A stretch of 61,883 nucleotides of DNA from positions 1 through 61,883 of the forward strand of contig JAPLRW010000259.1 in NCBI GenBank assembly GCA_026398935.1, in the 5' to 3' direction. The translations under genes and the position numbers were made by a program. This document shows positions 46,627-51,883 of the stretch, piece after piece. The notes under the pieces are model-generated. The model was not told the origin of the DNA. It was given only the letters and a program-made list of their open reading frames with translations, and did not search any database. Position 1 is the stretch's first letter; each line of letters begins with the position of its first letter. Source of the stretch: Methylococcales bacterium (GTDB lineage Bacteria; Pseudomonadota; Gammaproteobacteria; Methylococcales; Methylomonadaceae).

Positions 46627-47667
46627 ATGCGTTTAAACCTGCAACAACTCGGTGAGGCGTTACAAAAAAAAATCGCTCCGGTGTATTTTTTAAGTGGTGA
46701 TGAGCCTTTGCAATTAGGTGAAGCTGCCGATGCGATTAGAAAAACAGCGCGGCAGGCGGGTTTTTCTGAACGGGAAGTGATGACCGTCGATACGCATTTT
46801 GAATGGCACTCGCTTGCTGAAGCGGCGGGATCGTTGTCACTGTTTGCAGATAAAAGAATCCTTGATTTAAGGGTTCCTGATGGCAAGCTGGGTAATGATG
46901 GCTCCAAAGCATTGCAGGCGTACTGTGAGCATCCGCCAAGTGATACGCTGTTATTAATCACTTCTGCTAAATTAGCCCCAGCATCGCTTAAAACCCGTTG
47001 GTTTGAAGCCATTGATAAAAGCGGCGTCGTGGTACAAATCTGGCCTCTGGACGGTAAGGATTTGCTGCAATGGTTGCAACAGCGCGCGGGGCAGCGTGGT
47101 TTGCGCATAGAGCCTGAAGGCCTTAGAATTCTCGCTAGCAAGATTGAGGGTAATTTGTTAGCGGCGGCACAAGAAATAGAAAAACTGTTTGTGTTGTATG
47201 GTGATCAGCCAATCACTGCGCAAGCGGTCGTTGATGTGGTGGCTGACAGTTCCCGTTATGATGTTTTTAAACTGGTGGATGCCGTGCTTGTTGGGCGGGT
47301 TAGTCGTATTTTAAAAGTATTGCAGGGATTAAAAGACGAGGGCGTTGCCGCCCCGGTGGTACTGTGGGGTTTAACCCGTGAAGCTAGGCTGTTATTGAGT
47401 ATACAATCGCAGTTACAACAGCGAGTTCCGCGAGAGCAGGTGTTTAAAAATCATCAGCTTTGGGATAAGCGCAAAGGCTTAATTAATGATGCTTTAAGCA
47501 AGTTAACGCGTCAGCAGTTATTTGAGGTGCTTGTGCTAAGTGCTCAAGCCGATCAACAAATTAAAGGCCAGCAGTGTGGTGATCCTTGGGAAACGTTGTT
47601 GACTATTTGCCTGTTGTTTACGGCTGTTCATCCGCTGTCGCTAAATAGTGGCGCGTCATTTCAGTAA
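46627..47667 (+). CDS. holA: DNA polymerase III delta subunit
   Basis: This 346-residue protein is the clamp-loader 'wrench' that opens the beta clamp. It shows the N-terminal YFLSGDEPLQLGEAADAIRK, the KDLLQWLQQRAGQRGLRIEP segment, LLAAAQEIEKLFVLYGDQPI and C-terminal GLTREARLLLSI. Length matches E. coli HolA (343). It follows lptE with one base between and converges on the SufR-like regulator, overlapping its stop by 12 bp. Confidence 0.93.
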   Translation: MRLNLQQLGEALQKKIAPVYFLSGDEPLQLGEAADAIRKTARQAGFSEREVMTVDTHFEWHSLAEAAGSLSLFADKRILDLRVPDGKLGNDGSKALQAYCEHPPSDTLLLITSAKLAPASLKTRWFEAIDKSGVVVQIWPLDGKDLLQWLQQRAGQRGLRIEPEGLRILASKIEGNLLAAAQEIEKLFVLYGDQPITAQAVVDVVADSSRYDVFKLVDAVLVGRVSRILKVLQGLKDEGVAAPVVLWGLTREARLLLSIQSQLQQRVPREQVFKNHQLWDKRKGLINDALSKLTRQQLFEVLVLSAQADQQIKGQQCGDPWETLLTICLLFTAVHPLSLNSGASFQ

Positions 47668-48276
47668 AAATTTACAAACACAATCATTCTGCGCCATGCA
47701 GGCTGTCTGTAGAATCGGCTTCTCAAGTAAGGTCGACATTAAGGCATTATCAAATTCACACAATTCAGGGTACTGTTGTGCCAAATCGTGATACACACAA
47801 TTAAACGCCAGTATCGTGGGTTCGGCAGATGAGGTATCAAGCTGGGCATGGTAGCCGAGGGATTGCATGACAGCGACTAGCTCAGTTAGTTTGTCTGTTG
47901 GGCTTTTGTGGCTAAATTGCTGCATTAAAGAGTGCGCCAGCTTAACCCCCAGTTTCGCCATATAACGCTTAAATGCTTCATCACCCATATCTTCTTTAAG
48001 ATCACTTAAGAGTAAATTGCAAAACCAGGAATATTGTTTAGGGAAGTGGTTAATACCCTGTTCGGTTAGTCTGTAGCGTTGCGCAGGGCGTCCATGCGTC
48101 ATGGTCAGTGCATGTTTCTGTATCAGCGCTGTACGTTCAAGTATGACTAAATGCTGCTTAATGGCATTTCTGGAAATATGCAATTGACTCGCCATCTCAT
48201 CAATACTCATGCCATTTTTTACATCAAGCAAGAGCTTGAGTATTTGATCCTGCCGAGAATTGGCTCCCTTAGCCAT
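47656..48276 (-). CDS. SufR-like winged-helix regulator with Fe-S-type cysteines
   Basis: This 206-residue regulator has an N-terminal winged-helix HTH (NGMSIDEMASQLHISRNAIK, wing with GRPAQRYRLTEQG). The C-terminal domain has cysteines at 160, 173 and 201, spaced CX12CX27C (plus C193 and C199), the cluster spacing described for SufR-type [4Fe-4S] regulators. SufR senses iron-sulfur, peroxide or nitric oxide stress. It is divergent from the globin operon, and interlocking inverted repeats lie between them, so it is the obvious candidate to control that operon and itself. Not near suf genes in this window, so it may be a paralogue with a distinct regulon. Confidence 0.85.
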   Translation of the reverse strand: MAKGANSRQDQILKLLLDVKNGMSIDEMASQLHISRNAIKQHLVILERTALIQKHALTMTHGRPAQRYRLTEQGINHFPKQYSWFCNLLLSDLKEDMGDEAFKRYMAKLGVKLAHSLMQQFSHKSPTDKLTELVAVMQSLGYHAQLDTSSAEPTILAFNCVYHDLAQQYPELCEFDNALMSTLLEKPILQTACMAQNDCVCKFLLK

Positions 48277-48352
48277 AGCAACCGCCTATTTTTTTGAACA
48301 CCAAAACGTTGAATAACAATGAATGCGTCTAGTTAAAAAACCGAATACAGAG

Positions 48353-48401
48353 ATTGTAACAATAAGTTAAAAGCACTCTCGTTACAATGAGTATAACTTA
48401 T
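48353..48401. promoter_or_regulatory. Two interlocking inverted repeats in divergent promoter (candidate operators)
   Basis: ATTGTAAC (48353-48360) pairs with GTTACAAT (48381-48388), and ATAAGTTA (48362-48369) with TAACTTAT (48394-48401); both are perfect 8-bp inverted repeats. TAAC-N5-GTTA within 48357-48369 resembles the CAAC-N6-GTTG site type of SufR. The site lies upstream of the globin promoter. Confidence 0.6.
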
Positions 48402-48413
48402 GTAATAAAAATG

Positions 48414-48442
48414 TTGCAAAAGTAATGTGTCGAGCCTACACT
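48414..48442 (+). promoter_or_regulatory. Sigma70-type promoter of the globin operon
   Basis: TTGCAA (48414-48419), a 17-base spacer and TACACT (48437-48442) make a good -35/-10 pair, placed 58 bases before the globin ATG at 48500. It lies just downstream of the inverted repeats, so a bound regulator could control access of RNA polymerase. Confidence 0.55.
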
Positions 48443-48499
48443 ATCTTTTCCAGCATCTGGGCTGGATGAGTTTTTAAAATTAACGCTGAGGAAATTACA

Positions 48500-48889
48500 A
48501 TGAGCGAAGAAGCCACACCGACTAAAGCAACACTGTATGAAAGAATTGGTGGCGAAGCTGCTGTTAATGCGGCAGTGGAGCTGTTTTACCGCAAAGTATT
48601 AAGCGACCATCGCATTAATCGTTTTTTTGCTAACACCAATATGGACGAACAAATTGCCAAGCAAAAAGCTTTTTTCACCATGGCATTTGGTGGCCCGAAT
48701 ACCTACACCGGAACTGACATGCGTAACGCCCATGCCGCTTTGGTAAAAAGAGGCTTGGATGATTCTCATTTTGATGCGGTTATGGAGCATCTTGGTGCAA
48801 CATTGCAAGAATTAAATGTTCCCGCTGATCTTATCGGCGAAGCAGCGGCTATCGCTGAAAGCGTAAGAAACGATATATTAGGCAAATAA
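48500..48889 (+). CDS. Group 1 truncated haemoglobin (TrHbN type)
   Basis: This 129-residue two-over-two globin begins its fold at LYERIGGEAAVNAAVELFYRK. It has the B10 Tyr in ELFYRKVL (Y30), the distal Gln pair in DEQIAKQKAFF, the FGGP turn and the proximal His in MRNAHAAL (H78). TrHbN proteins oxidise NO to nitrate using bound O2. It is the first gene of a three-gene operon; the reductase starts 11 bp after its stop. GAGGAAA gives a normal ribosome-binding site. Regulation is probably by the divergent SufR-like gene. Confidence 0.93.
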   Translation: MSEEATPTKATLYERIGGEAAVNAAVELFYRKVLSDHRINRFFANTNMDEQIAKQKAFFTMAFGGPNTYTGTDMRNAHAALVKRGLDDSHFDAVMEHLGATLQELNVPADLIGEAAAIAESVRNDILGK

Positions 48890-48899
48890 AGAAATCATA

Positions 48900-49904
48900 A
48901 TGAAAAAAATTGTTTTGGGTAATCAAGAAATGTCGTGCCAGAGTGATGAAACACTTCTGGACGCTTTGTTGCGTCATGAGGTTGCTATTCCGTATAGTTG
49001 TCGACAAGGCGTCTGTCAAAGCTGTGTAGTACGCAGCTTGGATGTTGTTCCTCCACTCCTTTCACAACGGGGGCTAAAGGATGTTCAGCAAAAGCAGAAT
49101 TATTTTTTGGCTTGCAAATGTTACCCAGAACACGATATGGAGATTGCGCTAAGCCAGCAAGCGAGTTTTTTTACGGAAGGTACGGTTGTTGGCAAAGCGT
49201 TACTCAATACAGAAACCGTCCTGCTATCAATCCAATGCAATGATGCGCTGGATTTTTATGCAGGACAATTTGTCAATTTGCAACGTGCTGACGGTCTTAC
49301 GCGTAGCTACTCTATCGCGAACAGTCGCCTGCATGCCACGGAATTAACTTTTCATGTGCGACGCTTACCCGGTGGACGTTTCAGTGAATGGGCGCATGGC
49401 GATTTACAGATTGGTGACACGCTAAAAGTTTCTGAACCACAAGGTTTGTGTTTTTACTTACCCGATCGACCTGAACAAAATATGTTGCTGATTGGAACGG
49501 GGAGTGGTCTTGCGCCACTGGCCGGAATTATCAGTGAGGCGTTGCAACAAGGCCATACCGGCGACATTTATTTATTTCATGGTAGCCGAGACAGAGAGGG
49601 TTTGTATTGGATTGAGGAAATGCAGGCTCTGCAGCAACAGTACAGCAATTTTCACTATACGCCTTGTATATCTAATGGTTTGGTGCCAGACGGTTTCGCA
49701 CAGGGCAGGGCAAATGATGTTGCTATGCAGGCGTTACCTAAATTGAATGCTTGGCGGGTATACCTCTGTGGACATCCTGATATGGTTAATCAAACCAAAA
49801 TACAAGCCTTTCTAAAGGGTGCTAGCTCAATCGATATTTATTCAGATGCCTTTCATGTAACGCCGGATCTTACGCCTAGTAGCGCAACCACTACGATCAG
49901 CTAA
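48900..49904 (+). CDS. Ferredoxin/flavin NAD(P)H oxidoreductase (2Fe-2S, FAD, NAD domains)
   Basis: This 334-residue electron-transfer protein has three domains in order. A plant-type [2Fe-2S] ferredoxin uses SCRQGVCQSC and ACKC (C34, C39, C42, C72). An FAD domain shows TRSYSIANS near residue 135, and an NAD domain has GTGSGLAPLAGI (about 196) and CGHPDMV near the end. This is the layout of phenol/methane-monooxygenase-type or flavohaemoglobin-like reductases. Its place 11 bp after a truncated haemoglobin suggests it reduces the haem iron after each NO dioxygenation cycle. A monooxygenase partner is not present. Confidence 0.9.
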   Translation: MKKIVLGNQEMSCQSDETLLDALLRHEVAIPYSCRQGVCQSCVVRSLDVVPPLLSQRGLKDVQQKQNYFLACKCYPEHDMEIALSQQASFFTEGTVVGKALLNTETVLLSIQCNDALDFYAGQFVNLQRADGLTRSYSIANSRLHATELTFHVRRLPGGRFSEWAHGDLQIGDTLKVSEPQGLCFYLPDRPEQNMLLIGTGSGLAPLAGIISEALQQGHTGDIYLFHGSRDREGLYWIEEMQALQQQYSNFHYTPCISNGLVPDGFAQGRANDVAMQALPKLNAWRVYLCGHPDMVNQTKIQAFLKGASSIDIYSDAFHVTPDLTPSSATTTIS

Positions 49905-49963
49905 TAACGCTACGATCTTCACAGTTAATCACTTAAGTTTCTCTAAACTTAAAGGTTGGACGT

Positions 49964-51157
49964 ATGGCTATGCACAGACTTTGGCGCGCCTTAAGCACCG
50001 ATCAAATGCAGTTAAGTTTTAAGGAGCAATTTCTTACTGCGCTTACTTGCTTTACCGCGGTTCTGTTAGCGGGTTTTATCACCCGTCTGCTAGTGCAGGA
50101 TCAAGCACCCTTACTCATTGCGTCAATGGGTGCATCAGCGGTTATTTTATTCGTTATGCCCAGCAGTCCACTGGCTCAACCATGGCCTTTTATCTTAGGA
50201 CACCTACTCTCGGCGACAGTGGGTGTTGTCGCACTGTATTTAATACCCTCAGTTATGTCCGCCGCTGCTACTGCGGTCGGTTTATCGGTATTACTGATGT
50301 TGTTGTTGCGTTGCTTACATCCACCCGGTGCAGCAACAGCCTTAGCACCCATTCTGGGGCACGATCCTTCAAAATTGCTTGATTTTAATTTTGTTCTAAT
50401 GCCAGTAGGCGTTAATGTCATGATTATGTTGGGATTAGCGATTATCTTAAATCGCTTTATTTTACAACGACAGTACCCTATTCTAAATCAACAGCACACG
50501 TTAAAAGCATCAAAACCATTATCCGAAAAAAAGCCTGTAGCGGACTTTTATAAACAAGATATTTTAGAGGCTCTCGCTGGTTTTGAAGGTTTTTTGGATA
50601 TTGGTTACGCTGATCTTAGTAAACTTTTTACTCAAGTGCAATTACTGGGCTATAAACGCAGTCACGAACACATCACCTGCGCAGACATTATGCTGCATGC
50701 TATTATCACCGTTGATTATGATACGGATGTTGAGGTTGCTTGGGCGTTGATGCATAAGCATCATTTGAAGGCAGTGCCTGTTCTGGATCGAGCTAAACGT
50801 GTTATTGGTATTGTGACGCACTATGATTTTCTTAAGTATGTTCAATTAACGCCGTATGCAAATTTCCAAGAAAAGTTTTTGGCCTTTATTCACAAAACAC
50901 CCGATATAACCACCGATAAGCCCGAAGCAATCGGTCACATCATGACCCGTAAAGTTGCAACCCTGCCAGCGTCCGCACACATTGCGGATCTCGTGCCATT
51001 CATGACGGCTAATGGGCATCGGTACGTACCCATTGTTGATGAGCAACAGCGTTTTGTGGGTATGATTTTTCAGCGGGATTTTATTGCCGCGTTATTTCAA
51101 AATAAGCTAATGCCGTCCAAATATCAAGACGATAGATATAGCAACAGACATAAATAG
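49964..51157 (+). CDS. HPP-family membrane protein with two CBS domains
   Basis: This 397-residue protein has an N-terminal HPP transmembrane domain (residues ~20-170: PLLIASMGASAVILFVMPSS, LAQPWPFILGHLLSA, LLLRCLHPPGAATALAPILG). Two C-terminal CBS domains follow (~230-290 TCADIMLHAIITVDYDTDVE, and ~320-380 IMTRKVATLPASAHIADL). HPP proteins have been reported to transport nitrite in plastids and cyanobacteria, and CBS pairs bind adenine nucleotides. It is the third gene of the globin operon (59 bp after the reductase), suggesting that it moves nitrite or a related ion linked to NO detoxification. Confidence 0.88.
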   Translation: MAMHRLWRALSTDQMQLSFKEQFLTALTCFTAVLLAGFITRLLVQDQAPLLIASMGASAVILFVMPSSPLAQPWPFILGHLLSATVGVVALYLIPSVMSAAATAVGLSVLLMLLLRCLHPPGAATALAPILGHDPSKLLDFNFVLMPVGVNVMIMLGLAIILNRFILQRQYPILNQQHTLKASKPLSEKKPVADFYKQDILEALAGFEGFLDIGYADLSKLFTQVQLLGYKRSHEHITCADIMLHAIITVDYDTDVEVAWALMHKHHLKAVPVLDRAKRVIGIVTHYDFLKYVQLTPYANFQEKFLAFIHKTPDITTDKPEAIGHIMTRKVATLPASAHIADLVPFMTANGHRYVPIVDEQQRFVGMIFQRDFIAALFQNKLMPSKYQDDRYSNRHK

Positions 51158-51322: not shown

Positions 51323-51631
51323 CTATATTTTTAAGCGTTCCACCACTCGACCCTCTTGCAAATGTTCGCTAATGATTTCATCAATATCACTTTTGTCTTT
51401 ATAGCGATACCACGTTCCTTCCGGGTAAATAGCGATGACTGGGCCTTTATTGCATCGATCCATACAGCCAGACTTGTTAATACGGCATTTTCCTTTGCCG
51501 CCTAATTTCAGATTTTTGAGCTGTTCTTTGGCATAGTCAAGTAAAACAGGTGCGTCGTGGTTAGCGCAACAGGCTGTACCGTCTTCACGTTGATGGGTAC
51601 AAAAAAACACATGGTATTGATAATAACTCAT
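51323..51631 (-). CDS. Thioredoxin-like [2Fe-2S] ferredoxin
   Basis: This protein of about 102 residues has the Aquifex/Clostridium-type 2Fe-2S fold. It shows FFCTHQREDGTACC near the N-terminus and CRINKSGCMDRCNKGPVIAI, then YPEGTWYRY, with cluster cysteines spread across both segments. It donates electrons to unknown partners; in aerobes such proteins occur near nitrogenase or hydrogenase genes or stand alone. ATG 51631 is chosen over GTG 51637. It converges on the globin operon. Confidence 0.85.
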   Translation of the reverse strand: MSYYQYHVFFCTHQREDGTACCANHDAPVLLDYAKEQLKNLKLGGKGKCRINKSGCMDRCNKGPVIAIYPEGTWYRYKDKSDIDEIISEHLQEGRVVERLKI

Positions 51632-51883
51632 TGGCACATCTCTAACTGTTATAAAGTTAAATTATACCTGATGCGTTGTATATTACGCATAGGGGATGTT
51701 ATGTATGTACGGGAAATAGCAATATGTCGGAAAAATCTTATTCTTTATAGGAATAAAGAGAATATAATACTTTTAATCATTTGAATGGGGAATTGTGCGT
51801 GATTATTATTCGGACTATTTTTTCATTGAGTTGATATAGCGGAGTGACGTGTATTTACATGAATGTATTTTTGGATATTTAGG

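Follow-up and report, generated by a model that had tools for sequence, protein, structure and literature searches.

A SufR-like regulator facing a truncated haemoglobin and its putative reductase: a probable nitric oxide defence module in Methylococcales

Contig JAPLRW010000259.1 of a Methylococcales bacterium (family Methylomonadaceae; assembly GCA_026398935.1) was analysed over its full 61,883 nucleotides, here called the window. It carries a gene for a SufR-like winged-helix regulator of 206 amino acids (47656–48276, minus strand; assigned from profile matches and a predicted structure), which is divergent from a plus-strand run of three genes. These encode a group 1 truncated haemoglobin of 129 amino acids (48500–48889; PF01152), an NAD(P)H reductase of 334 amino acids with 2Fe-2S, FAD, and NAD domains (48900–49904), proposed as the electron donor of the globin, and a protein of 397 amino acids with an HPP membrane domain and a CBS pair (49964–51157), which is an optional part of the module. 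The module is probably a nitric oxide (NO) defence switch under the SufR-like repressor. Gene order, its conservation, the conservation of cysteines, the geometry of operator and promoter, the linkage to norCB, and the exchange with NsrR-like genes were computed directly here. All four genes were found where the first-pass annotation had placed them and belong to the families it had named; its gap of 59 bases between the reductase and HPP genes was correct, and the 11 bp given for the globin and reductase genes is a coordinate difference, the actual gap being 10 bases.

Across 151 genomes of the same family, the regulator was detected in 104 genomes, the globin in 140, and a match to HPP in 118. 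Regulator copies were scored if their tblastn match exceeded 100 bits (matches of 100 bits or less were dropped), which gave 120 copies including that of the window, and neighbourhoods were retrieved for most regulator matches. The globin gene was divergent within 600 bp of the regulator gene in 98 of the 120 copies, and the reductase gene was also present beside 93 of them. Because this order is conserved, a chance arrangement can be excluded, and the recurrence that the first-pass annotation had expected in related genomes was observed. HPP lay on the operon side in 23 of the 120 copies, and norB or norC was located within the inspected span of 25. The close relatives of the regulator that could be named belong to Methylobacter, Methylomonas, Methylotuvimicrobium, Methylovulum, Crenothrix, and allies. 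Regulator relatives also occur outside the family (L323, L324, and weaker ones); when loci L323–L351 were searched, no globin or reductase match was obtained at E 1e-4 in flanks of about 1.5 kb.

The neighbourhoods point to NO. Genes norXCB followed the globin and reductase genes on the same strand in nine copies (L033–L036, L040–L042, L044, and L047) and were found on the regulator's strand in ten (L055, L062, L162, L181, L183, L185, L188–L190, and L227); two regulator copies in L223 were also near norXCB, and norX with a norC fragment came after HPP in L054. A close NorB was encoded near 21 of the 25 regulator copies linked to norB or norC, and the L035 NorB matched the solved cNOR with an E value of 1.3e-96. 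The regulator is also exchanged with NsrR-like repressors. An NsrR-like gene faced the globin–reductase pair in L358, L371, L372, L063, and L077, faced norXCB in L199, L202, and L204, and headed a globin–reductase–norXCB row in L205; the proteins of L199, L205, L077, L371, and L372 showed 80–97% similarity to that of L063. As L199 is from the source genome of the window, one genome has both arrangements, with an NsrR-like gene next to norCB and the SufR-like gene next to the globin. A gene for a copper nitrite reductase, a possible source of NO, also scored over its cut-off in this genome. Given the norCB linkage, the exchange with NsrR-like genes, and the operator kept at lone globin–reductase pairs (described below), NO is the best-supported signal, and the NO context proposed by the first-pass annotation was supported by these neighbours. 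It is improbable that the regulator keeps a SufR role, responding to Fe–S status or to oxygen or reactive oxygen species, with the globin and reductase handling O2 or peroxide. Group 1 globins do bind O2 tightly; however, the SufBD genes of the source genome are on contigs C85 and C263, the window being C72, so that the regulator is not beside the suf operon, and the linked or exchanged partners are NO genes (norCB and NsrR-like repressors).

A candidate palindromic operator of 24 bp, TTATGTAATAAAAATGTTGCAAAA, lies between the regulator and globin genes (48398–48421, no strand) and has the family core CAAT-N6-ATTG; it was obtained from a motif search with controls. Upstream regions of the regulator, 42 after dereplication, made up the training set. 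Runs retaining the globin coding sequence mostly returned the globin start, and the search was repeated with the coding part removed. This run gave the 24-bp palindrome TTaTacAATATatATATTgtAtAA with a log-likelihood of 393 (40 starts), a value partly inflated by the shared ancestry of the regions, and 20 dinucleotide-shuffled sets gave 43.0 to 52.6 (20 starts each, fewer than in the real run). When the window and 140 loci (1.78 Mb) were scanned, 94 sites reached at least 17 bits (56 in the 61 first-batch loci and 38 in the other 80), and none of them was farther than 400 bp from a gene for a regulator, globin, HPP protein, copper oxidase, or reductase. At loci outside the training set, 34 of 44 regulator–globin pairs reached 17 bits. 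In a sequence comparison, the core had the same spacing as the SufR site CAAC-N6-GTTG (PMC8593673) and a different consensus. An earlier guess derived from the window, TAAC-N5-GTTA, was present in one of 61 regions and was dropped. Two interleaved 8-bp perfect inverted repeats, ATTGTAAC/GTTACAAT and ATAAGTTA/TAACTTAT, were also noted at 48353–48401, just upstream of the operator and overlapping its left end.

The sequence TTGYA in the operator's right arm is compatible with a −35 box, likely that of the globin promoter. In the window, the likely −35 box TTGCAA (48414–48419, plus strand) is within this arm, and the likely −10 box TACACT (48437–48442, plus strand) follows 17 bp past it. Across the family, a −10-like hexamer occurred 16–18 bp past the right arm in 47 of 53 sites, compared with a mean of 14.3 in a random-offset control (standard deviation 3.4, maximum 26; 200 draws). 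The globin promoter was not listed by a stricter general promoter scan. Because the −35 box falls within the operator, the geometry suggests a repressor. The operator was also kept at eight of 21 globin–reductase pairs without a nearby regulator among the matches listed (L356, L359–L364, and L227), 20 of the 21 having been retrieved separately and one lying within L227. For the search of the source genome, the pattern was fitted to the window site, and its exact match there is by design. Three further matches with three mismatches were rejected as targets, as the reversed-pattern control gave two; no NO gene was seen flanking them. Other relatives showed variations on this layout. Regulator copies in L075, L080, L163, L173, L191, L194, and L223 faced a two-domain copper oxidase, several with a beta-propeller protein; L080 and L163 carried the operator, and in L179 the operator preceded the oxidase gene away from the regulator. 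In L353 (G034, same genus as the window), the globin–reductase pair was present although its genome yielded no regulator match, with a weak operator remnant of 4.8 bits at about the usual place.

The regulator matched the SufR model TIGR02702 nearly end to end (residues 9–201, E 4.4e-23), in keeping with the SufR-like label of the first-pass annotation, at 82.1 bits and below the curated cut-off of 178.8. The same model was matched with E values no higher than 0.001 by all 30 members of regulator set A2, the lowest value being 3.8e-25. The window protein gave no Rrf2 match at E 0.001; at E up to 1, 26 of the 30 members matched Rrf2 (best 0.00016), as they did many helix-turn-helix families. 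The cysteine motif C160-X12-C173-X27-C201 is as the first-pass annotation wrote it and as in Mycobacterium tuberculosis SufR, and the further cysteines C86, C193, and C199 can be added to it. In the copies covering each position, among the 120, C160 was kept in 119 of 119, C173 in 118 of 118, and C201 in 117 of 117; H163 was His in 117 of 118, C193 was Cys in 112 of 118, and C199 was Cys in 62 of 117. M. tuberculosis SufR requires C203, C216, and C244 and does not require C242 (PMC6034842), the place of which is occupied here by C199. The cyanobacterial spacing C-X12-C-X13-C-X14-C was not found, the regulator having C-X12-C-X19-C-X7-C, and the Synechocystis SufR cysteines named in a review (C164, C171, and C206; PMC13421787) match neither spacing.

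The structure model of the regulator (mean predicted local distance difference test score 87.2, predicted template modelling score 0.62) comprised a winged helix and a C-terminal V4R/BET3-like domain. Residues 80–206 of the model matched the sensor domains of MopR, DmpR, and PoxR with Z of about 12 over 123–127 residues and a root-mean-square deviation of about 3. BcsD had the highest Z (12.7), level with the V4R rows; BET3 scored equally. A sequence search of solved structures matched the DNA-binding half and gave no convincing match for the sensor half. At E up to 1, Pfam MetOD1 was matched by all 30 A2 members (best 5.2e-9); this domain has been likened to V4R and haem-NO-binding domains (PMC5847659). 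In another reading, the cysteines would ligate zinc or be joined in disulfides, after the manner of V4R-fold regulators, with NO acting on thiols; the zinc ligands of DmpR are Cys151, Glu172, Cys177, and Cys185 (PMC7264223), and the spacing C193-X7-C201 equals that of Cys177-X7-Cys185. We regard a zinc or thiol sensor as unlikely, however, since Asn or Ser replaces C193 in six of 118 copies and none of the three SufR-type cysteines varies, since a common fold with BcsD at its top demonstrates no metal, and since MarR-type proteins reach the same scores on the DNA-binding half. For a wider proposal the chances are about even: that this methanotroph family has a dedicated NO-sensing SufR branch, combining a winged helix with a V4R-fold cysteine-rich sensor, which replaced NsrR in its role, uses an operator of its own, and controls the globin–reductase pair and HPP as well as, in some of the relatives, norCB and genes for copper oxidases, and that by extension SufR itself has a V4R fold.

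The globin matched PF01152 with an E value of 1.5e-20, and its closest solved relatives were cyanoglobins and the group 1 truncated haemoglobin 3aq5, which we take to be a Tetrahymena globin. Tyr30, Gln51, Gln55, and His78, presumably B10, E7, E11, and F8, were conserved among 105 matches, with B10 Tyr, E7 Gln, and F8 His each in 104 of 104 and E11 Gln in 99 of 104 (Leu in five). Judged by its family, best relatives, proximal His, and distal Tyr and Gln, the protein is a group 1 truncated haemoglobin. The other PF01152 gene of the source genome is on contig C66. In L076 (G059:C310), next to a regulator copy, the globin was fused to a long N-terminal part, by eye a pyridoxamine-oxidase-type domain, and was followed by the reductase and then by a larger reductase–ferredoxin protein.

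The reductase had the domain order Fer2 (2Fe-2S), FAD_binding_6, and NAD_binding_1. At least 101 of its 143 typed homologues (the seven weakest listed rows were dropped from typing) adjoin a globin, which makes them a conserved pair, in line with the globin–reductase pairing of the first-pass annotation. It resembles MmoC, BenC, and other oxygenase reductases, and 28 of the 143 homologues were near neither a regulator nor a globin among the matches listed, as would suit a reductase that serves a monooxygenase and merely neighbours the globin. We consider such a role very unlikely, because the globin–reductase pair occurs under two unrelated regulators and no oxygenase component was found among the six window genes scanned. 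None of the 151 genomes had a match over the cut-off to the flavohaemoglobin Hmp; partial matches, chiefly to the reductase half, were present in 150.

The HPP protein matched TM_HPP with an E value of 1.8e-45 and CBS in two stretches. Many of the 118 genome-level HPP matches were short, covering the HPP or the CBS part, and 73 stronger rows from 69 genomes were retained once two second fragments and the rows scoring below about 110 bits had been removed. At least 29 of the 73 homologues were within 7 kb of a regulator, norB, or globin, and 44 were farther than 7 kb from any of these among the matches listed, as far as the contigs extend. In three regulator copies (L062, L190, and L227), HPP was on the operon side without the globin. 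The neighbours within 7 kb, together with the operator between the regulator and HPP in L062 and L227, support HPP as an optional target of the regulator. Nitrite transport was reported for the plant protein AtNITR2;1 (PMC4137279), and our guess by analogy is that HPP probably carries nitrite or another small anion. In L055 and L056, a MOSC protein was encoded beside HPP in the globin module; it resembles 6-hydroxyaminopurine reductase (100.5 bits, cut-off 294). Downstream of the operon in the window, and convergent with it, a small 2Fe-2S ferredoxin-like protein of the thioredoxin-like type is encoded at 51323–51637 (minus strand).

From these features we infer the following cycle of repression and release by NO. 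In the absence of NO, the regulator, which is most likely dimeric, would hold an Fe–S cluster on C160, C173, and C201, bind the palindrome over the globin −35 box, and block the promoter. NO would damage or nitrosylate the cluster and release the repressor, and the globin, the reductase, and here also HPP would then be produced. The O2 bound by the globin would convert NO to nitrate, after which the reductase would return the haem to its reduced state with electrons taken from NAD(P)H and relayed by FAD and then by 2Fe-2S. HPP would probably move nitrite or another small anion.

Several points weigh against an NO defence switch of this kind. NO sensing, Fe–S binding, and NO dioxygenation are predictions from sequence and gene context, and zinc stays as a rival metal because the fold resembles zinc-binding phenol sensors and DmpR binds zinc. 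Of the 120 regulator copies, 22 did not face the globin and 14 were without any counted partner (globin, reductase, HPP, or norB/norC). HPP, which the first-pass annotation treated as a module member, was lacking from most modules. Of the 25 norB/norC neighbours, four were weak, with a distant NorB (26–28%) in L163 (twice) and L192 and the norC fragment only in L054. The L063 NsrR-like protein, the only one scored, reached 135.7 bits against the NsrR model cut-off of 182, and those of L202, L204, and L358 were 47–50% identical to it. Ten of the 44 held-out regulator–globin pairs scored below 17 bits (11.3 to just under 17). Stand-alone norCB loci had no operator (best below 4 bits), which leaves one known operator target in the source genome. 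The operator was also absent from 13 of the 21 lone globin–reductase pairs; among those keeping it, no regulator was found in the L363 genome, the only copy of the L356 genome has an internal stop, and the L364 pair has a regulator fragment beside it. With these three set aside, regulator action at a distance is backed by five lone pairs.

The nearest published system is glbN-lpg2536 of Legionella pneumophila, for which removal of NO by a truncated haemoglobin and a ferredoxin reductase under NsrR was proposed in 2005 (PMC1274295). The two systems share these components and a proposed Hmp-like NO oxidation (PMC1274295, PMC3820574). The Legionella regulator is an Rrf2/NsrR protein with the operator gATGyAT-N5-ATrCATc, whereas that of the window is SufR-like with another operator, and the methanotroph module may add HPP or norCB. 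With the SufR proteins of cyanobacteria, M. tuberculosis, and Streptomyces, the window regulator shares similarity nearly end to end, three cysteines at the M. tuberculosis spacing, and a palindrome spaced like CAAC-N6-GTTG; it differs in scoring below the curated cut-off, in facing a globin and not suf, and in a further cysteine, C193, that most copies have. Likened here by description, ArnR of Corynebacterium glutamicum is a [4Fe-4S] winged-helix repressor with three cysteines that is released by NO and controls hmp; its cysteines (179, 193, and 223) are spaced differently, and its target is a one-piece flavohaemoglobin (PMC12343034). The likeness to Hmp itself is in the proposed reaction and electron flow, whereas the window globin and reductase are separate proteins, not one chain, with an added 2Fe-2S domain. 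The globin and reductase of the split flavohaemoglobin proposed by the first-pass annotation are a separate, conserved pair, and the idea is not new, since the globin–reductase operon under NsrR was published for Legionella. In methanotrophs, another NO system, Hcp/Hcr with a NorR-like regulator, was published for Methylobacter (PMC6977074), and a group 1 truncated haemoglobin of Methyloprofundus was very highly transcribed, for which an NO response was suggested (PMC8788690); the word hemoglobin was not found in the searched text of PMC6977074 and PMC12607906. No published account of a SufR-like regulator–globin module was found in the open-licence literature, and a SufR-like regulator in an NsrR-type role, with its operator, looks new.

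Methanotrophs encounter NO when co-oxidising ammonia or respiring nitrate, and their NO handling affects N2O release. Direct tests of NO control in methanotrophs would become possible with a candidate regulator, its defined operator, and a limited number of targets. The reductase is also likely to be the native partner that supplies a group 1 truncated haemoglobin with electrons, and the SufR family would extend from Fe–S assembly to NO defence in Gammaproteobacteria.

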